NCBI RefSeq assembly: GCF_020360975.1
Contig: NW_025408673.1
Span: 2,728,001-2,792,000, forward strand
Source of the DNA: Hirsutella rhossiliensis
Taxonomy: Eukaryota > Ascomycota > Sordariomycetes > Hypocreales > Ophiocordycipitaceae
DNA: 64,000 bases
Reading direction: 5' to 3'
Part shown: positions 42,615 to 52,500 of the stretch, piece after piece
Layout of the letters: each line of letters begins with the position of its first letter
How positions within the stretch are numbered: position 1 is the stretch's first letter
Notes under the pieces: generated by a model
What the model saw: the letters and a program-made list of their open reading frames with translations, nothing else
What the model was told of the DNA's origin: nothing
Database searches by the model: none
Made by a program: the position numbers and the translations under genes

Positions 42615-42619
42615 ATATC

Positions 42620-42818
42620 TATAAGGGTATTTACCCTTAGTATAGGTCTAGGCATTAGCCTAAACCTTAGCCGATAAGCGTTATAGGTTAAGGCAGGCCG
42701 TACGTATAAACGCGTATTTAGTAGTAGTAGGCGCGGCGTATAGTTAGATCCTATATAGCTTATTATTATAATATAACGGAAGGCACCTACGGTATAACCC
42801 TCTGCCTACCCTATAATA
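42620..42818 (+). repeat. gypsy-1 5' LTR (199 bp)
   Basis: TATAAGGGTATTTACCC ... CCCTATAATA; the TG...CA ends are now TA...TA. The leader GTATAAGCTATT follows directly and is shared with the gypsy-5 fragment at 3152-3163, so it may contain the primer-binding site. Confidence 0.95.
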
Positions 42819-42999
42819 GTATAAGCTATTATTATATTAGACCCGATATTAGAACCTTAGTAGTACTAGCTAGGGTAGTAGTAGTAGCAGCAGCTATTAT
42901 AGGAAGAAGCCTAGTACTAATAGCTACGGCAATAGGCGGAAGAGCTATACTAGCAATACCTATAGGAAGAGGCCTAGTAGTAACGGGATAAATAAGCCC

Positions 43000-44180
43000 G
43001 GTTTATAAAGCTATTCTACTAGATATTATAAGACCTAGACTAACGAGTAACCCTACGCCGGATCCTTAATACCCTCCTAACGCTAGCTCCGATAGATACG
43101 CCCCCCGCTACCGAGAGGTCGGAGCGTAAGGCGGCCCTCGGTAGACGGAAGCTACTACCTTAGCCTACCTAGGACGGTAAGCTAAAGACCTTTTACTTCT
43201 TCCTTAACCGCTTAATAGCGAAATACTATATTAACGAGAAATAGGGCCTTAATAGCTATAAGGAGATAGCTTAGTTCTCGCTCCTCTATACGCTGCCGGA
43301 GCCCTAGATACGGCGAATAGCGGGCTTCTAGGAGCGGGGTAGTCCTAAGGGGACGAAAGACCCCTAAGCATTCTTTAACTACCTAGTCTACGCCTTCGGC
43401 AACGTATAGGAATAGGAGAAGGCATAGGATAGGCTGCGGACCCTTACTTAATAAGAGGGGCAGTCCTTTAGGGAGTTCTTACCGGAATTTAAAGAGACCC
43501 TAACCTAGGCGGCGGGTAATACCGCCTAGGATAACGGCGCTAAGCTTACCTAGCTACGGAACTTAATCTCCCCGGGGCTCCGGGAGCTGCTTATCCCTAT
43601 TATAATGCCCTCTACCTACGAGGGCTACGTAGGCCGCCTTACGAAGGTAGCCTAGGGATATAAGCAGACGCCGCGCTTCTAGAAGCTACGTAAGCGCTTA
43701 GCCTCGAGCGGGACTAACGGGCCGGATAGCTCCTCCTTACTTAACCCGTCTACGCCCGGGCCCGCTCCTAAGTCGGCGGTGGATGCGGACGGCGACGTCC
43801 GGATAGCGGCCATGCGCCCTAAGGGGCGCGGCAATAGCAAGACCCCGGCCGCTCCGCTAGCGGCGTAGTCCGGTAAGACGGCTAAGTAGGTGCCCTATAA
43901 GGAAATTAGCAAACGACGCAAAGAGGGCCGCTATATACGTTACGGCGTAAGCACGTATATAGTTAAGTCTTGCCCCTACCTCCTAGTAAGGAGGCCGGTA
44001 GAGATATAGGTTACCCGCGCCCTATTAGAATCCGACGACGAGGGAGATAGGGGAACCTCCGCTATATACGAAGCGGAGGGAAAAGCTTAGCTCCGGTGCG
44101 AAGGCGGGCCCTAGAGCCTAGTAATCTAACACTAGCTAAGGAGGACCTAGTAAGGCGTATTAAAGAAGAACCTACTTTAA
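43000..44180 (+). pseudogene. gypsy-1 gag remnant with CCHC knuckle
   Basis: Frame 0 modulo 3. Capsid-like part: 'FYFFLNRLIAKYY' and 'NEKQGLNSYKEIAQF' (43190-43290), then 'EGQSFREFLPEFKETL' (43455-43500). A zinc knuckle is at 43932-43974, where Tyr-x2-Tyr-x4-(His changed)-x4-Cys corresponds to C-x2-C-x4-H-x4-C with TGC-to-TAC type changes. The acidic 'ESDDEGD' follows at 44030-44050. Readable overlap with pol extends to about 44180. Confidence 0.85.
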
Positions 44181-47100
44181 TATTAGTTATTATTAACTAG
44201 ACTTACCTCCTCTCCGCCCTTATAGATAAGGGTTATTAGTATTACGCCGCAATTAACGAAGCGAAAGCCCTTAAGCTACGCTTACTAGTAGAGAAGATTC
44301 GCCCTAGGCGTATAAGGGGCGCCTCGGCCGCGATAGAGGGCGCGGTTATTAAAGGCGTCGCCTAGGTAGCTACGGAGGTTAACGGCCTCCCGCGGCTACT
44401 AGTAGTATATATAGTCCCCTAGCTTAAGTTTCCCTTAATTCTTAGGAAGCTATAGTTAACGTATACGAAGTTATATTCGGTGCTATATAAAGGGAGGCTA
44501 TAGTTTAGCCCTATATAGTCCTAGGTCCGGTATAGTAGTAAGGAGGGAGCGCTAGACGCTCTGCCCGACTTATAAGACGCCTAGGAAGTCTTAGCCTCGG
44601 TGTTTATAGGCACGATACGGTAAATCTATAGGCGGAAAGGGCCGGCCGTAGCTATAGCGTCGATCTACGCGGTTAGCCTAGTAGATATTAAGAAAGCGCT
44701 ACGACCGAAGCGCCCTTTATCGGAAGAGGAGCTACGGTAGGCTATCCCGCCGCGGTTCTATAACCTACTACCGCTCTTCTAGAAAAGCGAGGCTAATAAG
44801 TTAAACCCCTATAAGCCGGGCGTAGACTACTTAATACCGCTCCGTATAGGGGACAACGGTAAGGAGCTTCCCCCGCCGTTTAGGCCGCTATATAGTATAT
44901 TACGAGAGGAACTACTAGTATTAAAGAAGTCCCTTACGGACCTCCTTAATAAGGGATTTATTAAGGCTAGCTCCTTTAAGGCGGCGGCTCCGGTCCTATT
45001 TATATAGAAGCTAGGGGGGGGACTTCGCTTCTACGTAGACTACCGAGCGTTAAACGCGATTATACGCCTAGACCGGTACCCCCTTCCGCTTATAAGAGAG
45101 ACCTTCTATAACCTAGTAAAGGCAAAGTAGTTTACGAAGCTCGACGTCGTCTAAGCGTTCTATAAGGTACGAATAGCGTATAGGGAGGAGTAAAAGACGG
45201 CGTTCTATACGAGATACGGCTTATTCGAGTAGATAGTTACCCCCTTCGGCCTAGTAGGTGCCCTAGCTACGTTCTAACGTTATATTAACCGGGTGCTTAG
45301 GGGTTTCCTCGATAAGTTTACGTCTATATATATAGATAATATTCTTATTTATTTAAGCGGGAGCTACGAAGACTATATATAGAAGGTACGGAAGGTACTA
45401 AACCGCCTAGTAGAGCACGGCCTATACCTAGACCTAGATAAATACGAATTTAGCGTTAAGCGCGTTAAATACCTTAGCTTTATTATTATCGCGGGCGTAG
45501 GCGTATAAGTAGACCTAGCTAAGATTTAAGCTATCCGCGACTAAGCGACCCCGATATCGCAATAAGGCGTATAGAGCTTCCTTAGCTTCGCTAACTACTA
45601 CCGGGTCTTTATTAAGGAGTTCTCGCGGATCGTGCTACCGCTTAACGAGCTAACGAGGGATAGGGCCCCCTTCTCTTAGGGACCTATATAAGTAGAGGCG
45701 TTCTAAACCCTTAAGGACTTATTTTCGTAGGCCCTAGTACTACTATAGTAGGACTTCGGCAATCCCTTAACTATAGAAGCGGACTATAGCGGCTATGCAC
45801 TTAGGGGAACCCTATCCTAAGAAGTAAAAGGGTAGAGGAGGCTAATAGCATTCTACTCGCGTAAGCTTACCGCGGCGGAGAGGAACTACCTAATCTACGA
45901 TAAGGAGATATTAGCGATTATTAGCTACCTCGAGTAGTAGTAGGCAGAACTCTATAGCTACGAGAGCTTTAAGATCCTTATAGACTATAGGAACCTCGAA
46001 TACTTTATAACCTAATAGTATCTCTTAGAGCGGTAGGCGCGCTAAGCGGAGTATCTCTCGCGCTTCTAGTTCTATATTAAGTATAGACTAGGCAAGGAGG
46101 CTACGGTCCTAGACGCCCTCTTATAGAGAGAGCAAGACCGGCCTACCTCTATAGACCTTAATACGCGAGATATATAGATAATCCTAGATAAGGCGCTCTA
46201 GACTTACCTTAGCGCTACTCTATTAGGGGCGGAGGGTAACCCCCTAGGAGCGGCCGGGGTCCCGCCCCCCCCTAAGGGTGCGCCCGACGTCCCTCGGCGT
46301 ATCTTCTAAGATAAGGAGCTCTAACGCCTATAAGACTAGCTAGCGGCATAAGATAGCACGTATATAAGCGTACGCCGCGTTATAGAGGTAAGGGCGCGCT
46401 TACTTAACCGCGGCCTTAGTTTAAAAGTCTAAGTAGGCGACTACTATATTAACCCCCGTAGCTACCTTCGCTATAAGGGTAGGCTATAGGTCCTAGGCGC
46501 GCCGGCGATAACAGAGGCCGTCGCTAGGGCGGCCCCCTTAAAAGTCAAGGAGCGGGATAGGTTAAGAGGGCGGATTATATAGATAATCTACGACTTAAGC
46601 GTAATCGGCTATCCCGGCCGCGAGGGCACGCTAGCAGCGATTAGCCGGGACTTCTACTAGCCGCTTATAGTACTATACGTCCGCTATTTCCTCTATAACT
46701 ACGATATCTATAGCCGCTCGAAGATCTAGAGAGCGCTTAAGAGGGGGCTATTAAAGTTACTACCGGTCCCTAACTAGTTCTATACGTATATATAGATAGA
46801 CTTTATTATAGACCTCCCTCTTATAGCGGGCGGCAACCGTAATCTCTAGGTAATTAAGGACCGTCTAAGTAAAGAAGTAGTACTAGAGCTAATACTATCT
46901 ATAGAAGCGGAGGCCTACGCCGAGCGCTTCCTCTAGTACTACGCCTGCTTCTATTAGTAGCTAGCCTCGATTACTAGTAATAAGGGCACTAATTAAACCG
47001 GCCGCTTCTAGTAGCACCTCTATAAGCTACTCTAAGTTACCTAGTTACTAAGTACGGCCTACTACCTATAGACTAATAAGGGGCCCGAACGCCTTAACTA

Positions 47101-48060
47101 GGAAGTCTAAGCCTACCTTTAAGGGGTAATAGCCTATAACTAAGTAGACTAAGATAAATAGCTTCCCGTAGCCTAGATAGCGCTTAACGGTAGGTCGAAC
47201 TTATTTATTAGTATATCCCCCTTCCTTACGCTATATAGGTTTAAACCGCCGTTAGCGTAGCCTATTACCGTAGATATAGGCGCGGAGCGCTACCTAGCTA
47301 GCTCCCTAAAGGGTAGGGCGTCCGCCTTTATATAGAAGCTATAATAAGTTTCGGAGTTCTACTAATCCTCGATAGCGTCTACCGCCTAAGACTAGGAGCG
47401 GTAGGCTAATAAGTCGCGGGATCCTATAGATAGGTTCGCGGCGGGGGATAAGGTTTAGTTAGACCTCTATAACTATAGGTCGATAAGGCTAAAGAAGAAG
47501 CTTAACTAGCTATACGCTAAGTATATAGTAAAGAGGGTGCTAAGTCTATAGACTATAGAGCTAGAGGGGCTGCCCTCTAGTATCTATAGTACGATTAACG
47601 TCGACCTCCTTTATCGCGCTACTATAGACCCCTTACCGGGCTAAGAGATAGCGGATCCTTAACTAGCCGCTATCCTTATTAAGGGGGAGGAGGAGTTCTC
47701 GGTAAAAGAGTTATAGGTAGCCCGTTAAAAAAATATAGGCCGCGGTAGAAGGCGCGAAGTCCTCGTTAAGTAGCGCGGCTACTAAGACCTAACGTAAGAG
47801 CCGGCTTCTAAGTTTAAGGGCGCGGTAGCTCTAGATAGGTTCGAGGCCCTTTATAGGCTAGTAAAGGAAAGCGATAGCCCGGCGAGAGAAGCTACCCCCC
47901 TAGCGGCAAAGTAGCTAGTACCCTAAGACGCGGGGGAGACTATACCCCGCCCTTAAGGAAGCGGCGGGGCACCGGGCCCGCGGCGGTCGCTACGCTAGCG
48001 TAAGCTATAGGCGCACGTTACGGATACCGCGACTACGGATAATAGGCGGGGCGCACTTAG
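44110..48060 (+). pseudogene. gypsy-1 pol remnant: protease, RT, RNase H, integrase, chromodomain
   Basis: Frame 2 modulo 3 throughout, i.e. -1 relative to gag. Protease 'ALIDKGYQYYAAI' at 44215 (D-T/S-G expected; Lys in the middle). RT '[12 protein letters not shown]' at 45023 and catalytic 'YIDNILIYL' at 45329 (second Asp now Asn). RNase H 'IEADYSGYALRGTL' and 'YSRKLTAAERNYLIYDKEILAII' region (45770-45925). Integrase zinc-binding domain 46580-46730, catalytic 'IDFIIDLPL' at 46796, 'SITSNKGTN' at 46967 (Asp now Asn). The chromodomain at 47687-47830 reads 'EEEFSVKEL', 'VARQKNIGRGRRREVLVK', 'RGYQDLTQEPASKF'. Known chromodomains of this class direct insertion to H3K9-methylated heterochromatin. 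The stop is uncertain. Confidence 0.93.
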
Positions 48061-49085
48061 GTCGGCGGTAGTATAAATAAATCGCATTAGCCCTTATAGG
48101 CGCGCTCGAGGGCGTATAGACTAAGCCCGGCGGGCCTTCTTCTTTAGCGGGGTCTTAACTACTAGACGGTTATCCTTATCCTCCTCCTCGTCCTCCTCCT
48201 CGTCCTCCTCCTTAGTATAAGGCGCGGCCCCGGCCTCGAGGGCGTGGATCCGGCCCTCTAGGCCACCTAGCTAAGCGGCGACGGCGGCGGCGTTAGGGAC
48301 GGCGGCGGCGGCGGCGGCGGTGCCGGTGGTGGTAGAGGCGGCGGCGGCAGAGGTAGCGGGGGCGGCCAGGGCGGCGTCGACGGTGCCCCTAAGAGAGAGA
48401 GAGTCAGCGCCGTAGAGAGTATAGGAAAAGGAGCTTACGCACTTAGGCACGAGGGCGGCGCGCTCGAGGAACTATAAGTTACGGTAGGCGGCGGCGGCGG
48501 CGGTTAAGGCGCGCTTAGCCTTATTCTAGTCCTTGCCTAGCTCCGCGGCGCTCTAAGCTACGGTAGTACGGGCAAGGACGGGCGGCGCAACCTTATATAC
48601 GCGGCTAGCCCGGGCGCATAGGAAGCAGCTGCCCTAAGGGCGGCCGGCCTAGTCGGCGCAAGGGAGGGACTACGAGGCATACCGCACGTAAGGGGAATCG
48701 CGGGTAGCGCCCCGGGCTACGGCGCGCTTATACTAGTACGGGGAGTTAATAACACTCGCGAGAATAGGGGCGGAGGGGCTTATAGAGGAGGGCGGCGAGG
48801 ACCCGCGCTTATTATTATCGTCGTTATCGTCGGCGTTATCGCGGCGGCCGGTAGCGGAGAGCGTAGCGGGGGCGGCGGCGGCGCGGGTAGTAAAGTTAAC
48901 GGCCGAGAAGCCGGGCAGCGGGTGGCGCGGAGCGGCGGCAGGCGCGACTAGGGCGGCGGGGGCAGTAGGTGGGGTAGCGGGCGAGGCAAGGGCGCGATCG
49001 ATAAAGTCGTCGATCTCGGCGGAGAAGTAAGACGAGGCGGGGGAGGATATATTAAATTATTTAAATAACTAGCGGGGGTATAGGT
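48040..49085 (-). pseudogene. gypsy-1 antisense accessory ORF with Zn2Cys6-like spacing
   Basis: On the strand opposite gag-pol, one frame reads about 340 codons from 49080 to about 48040 with stops only at probable Trp/Gln codons. The N-terminal part is Ala/Pro-rich ('EIDDFIDRALASP', 49000-49040), with an Asp/Asn run (48815-48850). At 48595-48690, six positions spaced C-x2-C-x6-C-x10-C-x2-C-x6-C are Tyr, Tyr, Cys, Cys, Cys, Tyr; the Tyr codons are RIP forms of Cys. This equals the Zn(II)2Cys6 binuclear cluster consensus. A helical, Leu/Ala-rich stretch (48480-48560), an Ala run from (GGC)n (48290-48340), a second helix and a Gly/Ser tail follow. Its codons match RIP on an antisense gene, not pol. 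Unknown function; DNA binding is only an inference from spacing. Confidence 0.65.
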
Positions 49086-49274
49086 TAGCTCGTATACGGG
49101 CGGCAGCGCACGGCTAGGCGCTAGGAGACTTATAGTTATAGTTACGGCTACTATTACTAATAATAATAATAATAGTATAGTTAAGAGGAAAGAGTAATAA
49201 GAGCGCGCTAGTAGGTTATTTACCTCTTAGCCGCGCGCCGAGGTATAGGATTAACGTTATAAGGGACCGCCCGT

Positions 49275-49291
49275 AAAGAAAGGGGCGGGGA
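49275..49291 (+). promoter_or_regulatory. gypsy-1 polypurine tract
   Basis: AAAGAAAGGGGCGGGGA ends 5 bp before the 3' LTR, the expected place for plus-strand priming. Confidence 0.75.
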
Positions 49292-49296
49292 CCTTA

Positions 49297-49495
49297 TATA
49301 AGGGTATTTACCCTTAGTATAGGTCTAGGTATTAGCCTAGACCTTAGCTAATAAGCGTTATAGGTTAGGGTAAGCTATATATATAAATACGTATTTAGTA
49401 GTAATAGGCGTAGCGTATAGTTAGATCTTATATAGCTTATTATTATAATATAATAGAAGGCACCTATAGTATAACCTTCTACTTACCCTATAATA
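49297..49495 (+). repeat. gypsy-1 3' LTR (199 bp)
   Basis: Same length as the 5' LTR. Differences are transitions of the RIP type, and this copy is more mutated (for example GCAGGCCGTACG in the 5' LTR versus GTAAGCTATATA here). ATATC follows. Confidence 0.95.
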
Positions 49496-49500
49496 ATATC

Positions 49501-52500
49501 TTAGGCCTATATTATAAGAGACTCCCTTACTTTTACTATTAATAGATAGTTAATTATTATATAGTAAATAGTATTTCTTTTTCTTTATAAGTATATATTA
49601 GTAAGACTATACTAAGAACCTATTAGTTTAAAAAGAAAGTTATTAAGCTTAATCTTTTTTAAATATATCTAAGTAATTACTATACTAATATACTTAAGAA
49701 GGCCCTTATAACGGTTTAGTATTATTACTTTATTAAACTATAGTATAAAGTTAATAAGGTAAAGGGTAGTTTATTATTATTAAATTATATCCTCCTTAGC
49801 GTTTTATTAAGTAGCTTATTTTTTATTTAGCTTTTTAAGCGACTTAGCTTTAGTTAAAATATCGTTTAATCTTATCTAGCTCTAGACTCCCTTTATCTAT
49901 TCCGCTAGGGGGGGCTTACTAAGTAGTAGCGCTACTAAGGGCCTACTTTATTTCTAGTATCGCCTCCTTTTAAGTATACCCGCGACCGCGTTAAACGTAT
50001 ATTAAATTTAGCTTAAGAGCCCTAAGTCCTTTAACCTTTAAAAGGTATTTATTATTCTTTAGTTTAAGTAAAGGTTAATTAAGGGTACCTATACCTTTAC
50101 TTTAACTTAGTAAACTAAGGTTATATAGTAAGCGCTTATTACTACTTAAAGGTAAGCTAATTAGTCTTATACTAGGTTCTATATAATCTTATATAGTTTT
50201 CCCTTTATAAGTATTATCTTATAAAATATAACTATAGTATAGGAGATTAAGGACTAGATTACCTTATTATAGACTTTTTTAGCGTATAGTAAGGTATAGC
50301 CTTATATAAATGCTATAAGCTTAGTTAAGGCTATAGTTTAATACTTTATCTTTACTTAAAGCTACTTTAAGTATACTTTTTATTATAATTTCTAGTATAC
50401 TTATACCCTTAGTAAGTAAGCCTCTTAAACTAGTATTACTATATTAGCTTTAAAGTAAACTAGTATTATTATTACCTATCTCCTTTATATAAAGTATATT
50501 AACTCGCTCTTTAATAATTTAAAAGTAACTATAAACTTAGTCGCTTACTTTATATATACCTTTTAAGCCTCCTTAAAATATACTACTATAATAGCCTTAT
50601 TAGGTTTAATACTAACTATATTTATATTATTAGTAAAGCTAATAGTATAAATACTATATATTATATTAAGCTTTTTATATAAAGGGGTTATATAGTATAG
50701 AAATAAGATTAAGGATAAGGGGAAGCTTTAAAAAACTCTTATTAATACTTATATTAGCTTTATAAATCTCTTATTAAAGTAAAAGGTTAATCTTTTATTA
50801 CTTATAAAGCTTTATATTAAGCTTATAAGCTATCTAAGGTATCCTTTAAGTTTTAGTTCCCTTATAAGCTTATTATAGTTAATTATATTAAATATACCTT
50901 TAATATCTAGCTATAAAAAGGATATAATACCCTTTTTAGCTTAGGTTATATATATTAGTTTTATTATTAAAAGGATCGCTACTTTTATAAAGCGCTCTCT
51001 CTTATTCCTTATTTATTTATTTAATAGGATACCGTTCGCTTTTACTACTCTTATAATCCTCTAAGCTAGTATTTACTTAAGTACTTTCCTTACTATATAA
51101 GTAAGAGGGAAATTAGTCTTTATCCCCTTACTATATAGTAAGCTTCTAGCTTCTTACCTAGCTTTTAAATTACTATTATATTTACGCTATAAAACCGCCC
51201 TAGGAAATATAAGAGTTAAGTATAAGCGTTAAAGATTATAGCTAGTCGCTAAACTAAGGCTAGTTTCTACTTTTTAATAAACTTTAAAGGGACGCTATCT
51301 AAACCTATTACTTTCTAGCTTATTATTTTACTTAGTACTACTATAACTTTAGCTAGCTAGATTTATTAGTTAATTATAAGGGTCGCCTTACCTATAAGCT
51401 AAGGTAGCTCTTAAGTTATATTAGCTTTTAGTAAAAAGAACTTAGTAGTTAATATTTAAGCCTTCCTTTTAAGGTTTTTATTAGTTAGTTCTTACCTTCC
51501 TTTAATATTAGTAGGATATAGGTTAGTTTTAATAGTAGCTTATTATAAAGTCTAGCCTACCTCTTTATATTTTAGAACTTAGTATTATTAGCGCTAAATT
51601 CCTTTAAGAACTTATACTAATAAGCCCTCCTTACCTTATAGATAGTTTACTTTTAAGCTGCTATTACTTTATATAAGTCTTTTTAGTTTACCTTACTCCT
51701 TTCTTACTTATACTTCCTCCTTACTTTCTTAGCTTCCTTTATTACCTTTCCTACCTTTATAGTAAACTATATATTACCTTTAAGTAATACTTACCCTTAG
51801 TATAAAACTATAGCTATCGTAATCTATATTAAAGTAAAAAAGATATAGTTTAGGTCCTTGTTAATATCCTTTAATATTTAAAGCGTTAGCTAGTATAGTC
51901 TTAGCTAAGATATAGTCTTAGTTTTAACTAGCTTAGCCTTTATATCTTTTTACCTTAGGGCTAGTTTAAGCGCCTAGGCTTAAGTATCGACTTATAATAT
52001 AATAGTTTAAGGGATATAGTTTAACTTAGTTAGGTCTAAGTTAGGCCTAGTATACTATATTTTAGTCTTTAGTATTACTTAAGCTAGGTTAATAGTATTA
52101 TCTTTTTAGCTATAGAAAAATCTTATATAGTTTTTTCTTAAAGTAGTAAGTTTAAGTTATAGTTTTATTACCTTTTATATAAGTTATATTATACTATCTA
52201 AGGTTCTATTATATTTATCTTAAAGTAGGTAATAAATATTAAAGTCCTTTACTATTACTATAAGGTACTTTAGTTTAATTATACTTAAGTCTTATAATAC
52301 TTTAGTCTTTATAGCCTTTAGTAGTAAGTAAATCGCTTATAGTTTAGTACTATATTTAAAAACTACCTTACTTTAATTTAGTTTAAACTAAGGCGACTAT
52401 ATCCCTAGCCTAAGCCTTTTATATATATATAGTAAATACCTCCTTTCTTTATAAACTAAGCTATAGGGCGCTACTTTAAAAGGTAGGGCCCTGCCTCTTT

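Follow-up and report, generated by a model that had tools for sequence, protein, structure and literature searches.

The stretch of DNA analysed here, referred to as the window, comprises 64,000 nucleotides (C7:2728001-2792000) of the 81.8-Mb genome of Hirsutella rhossiliensis, and the same genome was searched for further copies of the feature described below. The window contains a retroelement with a 5' LTR at 42620..42842 and a 3' LTR at 49297..49522, both on the plus strand and both with approximate limits, the 5' LTR being defined by local alignment with positions 49297-49522. The alignment of the LTR pair covers 223 positions with 27 transitions and 4 transversions. A purine-rich tract at about 49275-49291 was noticed by eye just before the 3' LTR. 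Between the LTRs, on the plus strand, a reverse transcriptase (RT) piece of gag-pol (44921..45355; RVT_1, E 2.4e-15) containing stop codons and RNase H pieces (Pfam, E 4e-18 and 3.5e-19) were found. By its LTRs and its RT-RNase H region the element is a Ty3/gypsy element, as the preliminary description had it. Its further assignment to the chromoviruses is plausible rather than established, since the gag piece and the chromodomain piece (61 residues, suggestive by eye) gave no Pfam match and the match to the zinc-binding integrase domain H2C2 is weak (Pfam, E 0.03).

The element is heavily altered by RIP, with CpA changed to TpA on both strands. The CpA dinucleotides left in the element (42617-49520) stand mostly in the context GCA (81/97; plus strand 57/66, minus strand 24/31). 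With this bias TGC cysteine codons would be spared from RIP.

Between the RT and RNase H pieces on one side and the LTR at 49297 on the other, as mapped in the window copy, the minus strand carries the remnant of an antisense gene (48121..49050). The codon equivalent to the start, at 49050, is ATA in the window and ATG in L037, another copy in the genome; the stop codon lies at 48123-48121. The frame consists of 309 codons plus the stop. The frame reported earlier is real, its length of roughly 340 codons having been set too high. It is interrupted by eight internal TAG codons and by no TAA or TGA. The frame had been described as broken only at Gln/Trp-type positions, which the copies bear out incompletely: seven of the eight internal stops correspond to a Gln, Trp or Arg codon in one or more of the other copies, and the remaining one (48555-48553) is a stop in all tabulated cores.

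Searches of the genome show that the frame is repeated many times. A DNA search gave at least 41 matches at 78-100% identity including the window (best 40 of 313 candidates scored). A protein search with a query of 236 residues gave at least 153 matches (best 150 of 639 scored), which fall into two groups, families A and B. Matches of family A span the query, and those of family B are 44-58% identical in most rows and mostly cover the cysteine part onward; a family-B query yielded at least 150 matches (best 150 of 687 candidates). Both families are Ty3/gypsy elements of this one genome with the antisense frame downstream of RT.

For the relative orientation, each frame was paired with an RT listed no more than 8 kb upstream of it. 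The input comprised 65 hits of family A, from which short pieces and duplicates had been removed; of the 150 hits of family B, the 67 ranked highest together with 14 lower ones chosen in knowledge of the RT list; and 114 of the 150 RTs listed (best 150 of 2371 candidates). With this selected input the frame is antisense to RT in 83 of 83 paired copies (25/25 in A, 58/58 in B), a count that stands for the orientation, the paired fraction not being a rate. The median distance from RT to the frame is 2997 nt. With so many copies found, the gene is a recurrent constituent of two related families and not a single-copy capture.

Among the matches listed, none of those covering at least 200 of the 236 query residues is free of stops. 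All full-length copies listed are disrupted, apparently by RIP, and consequently the gene looks dead in this genome. The copy L037 of family A reads from ATG to the stop codon with one internal TAG, and its GC3 exceeds GC1 and GC2 in each exon. For 32 of the 114 RTs no ORF is listed downstream among the matches listed, and six of these 32 are relatives with open RT frames. Such gypsy relatives with open RT frames (for example at C7:2051080, C10:2511771, and C5:571015; 59-69% RT identity) coexist in the genome with the families ruined by RIP. In four open-RT relatives (65-69% RT identity) a filtered tblastn search of the expected 3 kb gave no significant match to the antisense gene (best E 1.9), the yardstick being L037 against a family-B copy (E 2e-12). 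The gene therefore appears to be an accessory of this lineage that is not essential for gypsy transposition.

The frame can be divided into three putative exons on the minus strand. Putative exon 1 (48784..49050, equivalent to L037 1507-1773) is of low complexity and rich in Ala and Pro; because the family-B copies differ by small indels in this part, their exon-1 frame is unsettled. Putative exon 2 (48443..48732) holds a core with six cysteine positions. Putative exon 3 (48121..48388) is Ala-rich and contains a stretch that is heptad-like by eye, an acidic run and a basic C-terminus. Much of the antisense protein is of low complexity. The very end of the family-A frame (48121-48160, minus strand) is a basic run resembling a nuclear signal, which is absent from the family-B copies read.

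Putative intron 1 (48733..48783, minus strand, 51 nt) has an altered donor GT in the window copy; the signals are GT..GTTAAC..CAG in L037 and GTAAGT..GCTAAC..TATAG in family B. Putative intron 2 (48389..48442, minus strand, 54 nt) reads GTGCGT..GCTGAC..CTCTTAG, and its counterpart in family B, of the same place and length, reads GTAAGT..CTCTAAC..CTAG. Both segments are bounded by GT and AG and have a branch-like motif (CTAAC, TTAAC or CTGAC) inside, each of the two patterns being present in 7 of 8 B copies. At the donor of intron 2 an in-frame stop is found in all eight family-B copies. Retrotransposition would not remove an antisense-strand intron, since splicing would leave this part of the sense RNA untouched. 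In family B (L061-L068) an AATAAA follows about 29 nt after the antisense stop and is succeeded by a T-rich run in 8 of 8 copies; no AATAAA was found behind the antisense stop in the four A copies checked.

Several annotated 'hypothetical' proteins look like models over copies of the gene, namely P0001-P0005, which correspond to HRG_005298, HRG_004121, HRG_001916, HRG_003835, and a GCR1-type protein. Intron 1 is removed in the predicted models P0001-P0003 and intron 2 in P0001-P0004. In P0005 (E 0.035) a stretch of family-B exon 1 is fused to an unrelated host protein.

The core of exon 2 had been described as six cysteines with the spacing C-x2-C-x6-C-x10-C-x2-C-x6-C. The positions (48690-48595, minus strand) and the spacing are correct, but the columns in the window read, in order, Tyr, Tyr, Cys, Cys, Cys, and Tyr. 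Since three columns are Tyr, and since six-frame translation of the window yields 51 matches to the spacing when Tyr is allowed and no match for Cys alone, the motif is not demonstrable from the window alone. We therefore turn to the other copies, of which 24 of 30 A loci fitted the extraction pattern and eight B cores were obtained, one of them (L066) being left out of the tabulation. All six columns are exclusively Cys or Tyr in 24/24 A cores and in 7/7 B cores. The number of Cys residues from the first to the sixth column is 1, 3, 2, 8, 6, and 1 in family A (n=24) and 0, 4, 7, 7, 7, and 0 in family B (n=7). L066 has Cys in the first column, and the sixth column is Cys in no B copy. Across the families each column is thus Cys in at least one copy, and all six are Cys together in none of the 32 cores. 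This mixture of Cys and Tyr is what RIP would make of TGC and TGT codons, and in the core of the window copy TA is present at 23 of 33 scored RIP sites. The less mutated copies retain both the frame and the cysteines, as the preliminary description would predict. The middle loop is x10 in family A and one residue longer (x11) in family B. In L037 all cysteines of the frame outside putative intron 2 belong to the motif.

Behind the cysteine core both families have an in-frame stop (48553..48555, minus strand), which is present in 24/24 A and 8/8 B cores. L042, which the A-B core count left out, has Tyr at this position. The core of L037 is mutated at just one of 32 scored RIP sites, yet it contains the stop. 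The conserved sequence continues in frame beyond it. Three explanations may apply: RIP has struck a susceptible codon in almost every copy, the stop is read through, or one isoform ends here. A role as splice acceptor was also considered and rejected: inspection by eye showed no branch site, and no donor would preserve the Cys core together with the frame downstream. The models P0001-P0004 all splice near this stop, and each of the four loses Cys columns.

The strength of constraint on the antisense protein was assessed by simulation. The observed substitutions between families A and B were redistributed randomly over exon 2 and the six frames were scored in 1000 runs. In the antisense frame the comparison of L037 with three B copies gave a mean BLOSUM62 score of 2.97-3.12 against 1.69-1.72 in the simulations; none of the 1000 simulations reached the observed score for any of the B copies. 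Transversions are not produced by RIP, and with transversions only the result was likewise 0/1000. Apart from the antisense frame and the sense frame that shares its third positions, the remaining four frames of exon 2 are at chance. Exon 3 shows weak constraint, the observed score being reached in 15, 154, and 71 of 1000 simulations, and in 225, 417, and 221 with transversions only. Fixed transversions are distributed over the three codon positions as 18/18/28, a modest excess at the third (one-sided Fisher p 0.03), and the transversion-only dN/dS over the core is 0.63-0.66. Constraint on the antisense strand, on which the preliminary description had made its claim depend, is consequently visible in the cysteine exon but weak elsewhere.

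The nucleotide identity between L037 and five B copies agrees with the division into exons and introns. It is 0.67-0.69 in exon 2, 0.63-0.66 in exon 3, and 0.58-0.59 in exon 1, compared with 0.44-0.51 in the introns and 0.45-0.51 in the flanks. When only purines and pyrimidines are distinguished, which makes the comparison independent of RIP, the contrast is smaller: 0.78 in exon 2, 0.80-0.81 in exon 3, and 0.76 in exon 1 against 0.69-0.74 in the introns and 0.69-0.72 in the flanks.

Taken at the level of sequence, the comparison of copies demonstrates the position of the frame, its antisense orientation, its conservation in two families, the constraint in exon 2, and two shared intron-like positions. 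The reading that we favour, and that we hold to be rather probable, is a dead antisense accessory gene of a Ty3/gypsy lineage, which would be spliced and would encode a six-cysteine, zinc-cluster-like domain in a small, perhaps nuclear protein.

We considered four alternatives to this reading. The first is that the domain is a genuine Zn(II)2Cys6 transcription-factor domain, which the element took over from a host gene; it would since have diverged and would recognise specific DNA, for instance the element's own LTR. The cysteine spacing, with an acidic region behind it near the end of the protein, is like that of the fungal Zn(II)2Cys6 factors (PF00172), and to this extent the zinc-cluster claim made earlier stands. 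The spacing agrees with C-x2-C-x6-C-x5-12-C-x2-C-x6-8-C as columns across the copies, and in no single core. The HMMER comparison with PF00172 that had been proposed was negative at E<=10, both with the window reading and with four copy pieces, and in a genome-wide PF00172 search none of the 100 matches listed falls, by eye, at a listed A or B copy (150 of 150 candidates). No other Pfam family was significant, one piece giving two unrelated matches (E 0.89 and 1.5). Against a profile built from 10 host zinc clusters, by which left-out host domains score 38-51 bits, four antisense cores score far lower, with 1.9 (window), 9.2, 9.9, and 11.7 bits. The L037 core is above all 496 full shuffles reported with this profile, but shuffles preserving the cysteines equal the two best cores in 18 and 17 of 500 cases. 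The residues between Cys2 and Cys3 form the DNA-contact loop of Zn(II)2Cys6 domains and include basic residues there; the loop is basic in 10 of 10 host domains read and has no basic residue in the antisense cores.

PDB sequences gave no match to the L037 core, and a single-sequence structure model of the open 165 residues of L037 is unusable (mean pLDDT 50). Protein searches matched only H. rhossiliensis proteins, and among the matches was no described protein resembling the antisense product; as two of the searches had full candidate lists (7996 and 7992, probably taken up by low-complexity words) and the third had 21 candidates, absence elsewhere is weak evidence. A captured Zn(II)2Cys6 domain is thus unlikely, and because membership in PF00172 fails by profile, loop, and shuffles, we speak of a six-cysteine, zinc-cluster-like domain.

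Second, the antisense RNA could matter more than the protein; a convergent transcript would then modulate the sense RNA or supply a silencing pathway, and the frame would be secondary. Other retroelements are known to produce antisense transcripts that are non-coding, according to the accessible part of one source (PMC7264820). In exon 2, however, the constraint is at the level of amino acids, which makes this explanation quite improbable.

Third, the sense strand could be the conserved one, where either pol would extend further or a 3' ORF would follow; the conservation of the antisense frame would then be its shadow. The sense frame with the same third positions is indeed raised in exon 2 (2.62-2.84 against 1.69-1.75, 0/1000; 1-4/1000 with transversions only). 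It nevertheless scores below the antisense frame and contains four stops in 97 codons in L037, one of them TGA, and six to nine in five B cores. The complementary sense frame is nearly stop-free in these cores but under no constraint, and the splice signals sit on the antisense strand. We regard conservation of the sense strand as very improbable.

The weakest alternative is an open frame arisen by chance in GC-rich, RIP-altered DNA, with the cysteine pattern read into it. In its favour, the GC content is 0.65 at 48001-49000. In L037 and L032 stops are no more frequent in the complementary sense frame than in the antisense frame, and in the five B cores examined they are rarer there, so that open length by itself says little; matches to the Cys/Tyr spacing, too, abound in the window. 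Against it stand the protein-level conservation between two families, which no simulation reached, the six columns exclusively Cys or Tyr, and the intron-like segments, which are less conserved and carry splice signals at matching places. These leave the alternative scarcely any credit.

The antisense gene brtn of the Boty-like elements is reportedly due to Zhao et al. 2011. It lies between pol and the 3' LTR in Botrytis, and the available portions of the sources name Boty elements of Botrytis cinerea and Sclerotinia sclerotiorum and, by similarity, of Monilinia (PMC7264820, PMC8365987, PMC4227169, PMC5987419). It is likewise an antisense gene of a fungal gypsy element in the same place, and from these portions we liken the two by position and orientation; no Botrytis protein was among the matches of our protein searches, which were of limited sensitivity. 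The earlier statement that no system of this kind had been described was accordingly too strong.

The antisense ORFs that the preliminary description mentioned between pol and the 3' LTR of plant gypsy elements are borne out for Grande, RIRE2, and Retand, as far as the available text of the sources goes (PMC7264820, PMC11963269). These plant genes, called aORF-3R (Grande gene23, RIRE2, PvRetro13, and TRP28 of Retand), are conserved within families, and a nuclear accessory role has been proposed for them. Place, conservation within families, and a suspected nuclear or DNA-binding role are thus shared with the gene described here. The plant proteins differ, being of TRP28 or SMC-like type, and the accessible parts of both papers describe no six-Cys cluster in them; the words 'intron' and 'zinc' do not appear in the Retand paper (PMC11963269). 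The function of antisense genes near the 3' LTR of retrotransposons is given as not known in the same partial texts (PMC7264820, PMC11963269). Within the open-licence literature, at the level of titles and abstract openings, no retroelement with an antisense zinc-cluster gene was found among the entries listed. The antisense arrangement between pol and the 3' LTR is therefore already known, from plants and from the fungal brtn, and the six-Cys gene with apparent introns is a variant of it.

For the favoured reading, a dead antisense accessory gene, the following mechanism can be proposed. In a Ty3/gypsy lineage of H. rhossiliensis, the space between pol and the 3' LTR would have housed a third gene reading in the opposite direction. 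Its promoter would lie in or just inside the 3' LTR, transcription would run convergently towards pol, and the transcript would be spliced. Provided that translation continues past the conserved stop, the product would be some 270 residues long; it would comprise a single compact, zinc-cluster-like domain with six cysteines, which would presumably bind zinc, and an acidic end. Located in the nucleus, it would most likely have been an accessory factor acting on the element itself; as to the target, our guess would be LTR transcription or the integration complex.

A more far-reaching idea draws on HTLV-1, where antisense transcripts start from the 3' LTR and their product HBZ damps viral sense transcription, according to the parts available (PMC3736048, PMC6950816). 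By analogy, evolution within the lineage may have produced an antisense regulator belonging to the element, spliced and equipped with a novel domain of zinc-cluster type. This regulator would be expressed from the 3' LTR, reside in the nucleus, and act back on the element's sense transcription or its integration. HBZ is likewise an element-encoded product of the antisense strand. The analogy is one of working only and no homology is claimed, as HBZ is a bZIP protein without a Cys cluster and the Pfam results for the frame and its pieces included no bZIP family. We put this idea forward tentatively, as possible rather than probable.

The gene is old enough to be common to two families, and in the copies seen it is dead. 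Besides HTLV-type retroviruses, gypsy elements of plants and fungi are reported to have antisense genes close to the 3' LTR; the present one adds the signature of a small domain and apparent introns. These introns would make antisense expression testable through splice junctions. A gene hidden by RIP is, moreover, recoverable from the conservation between families.
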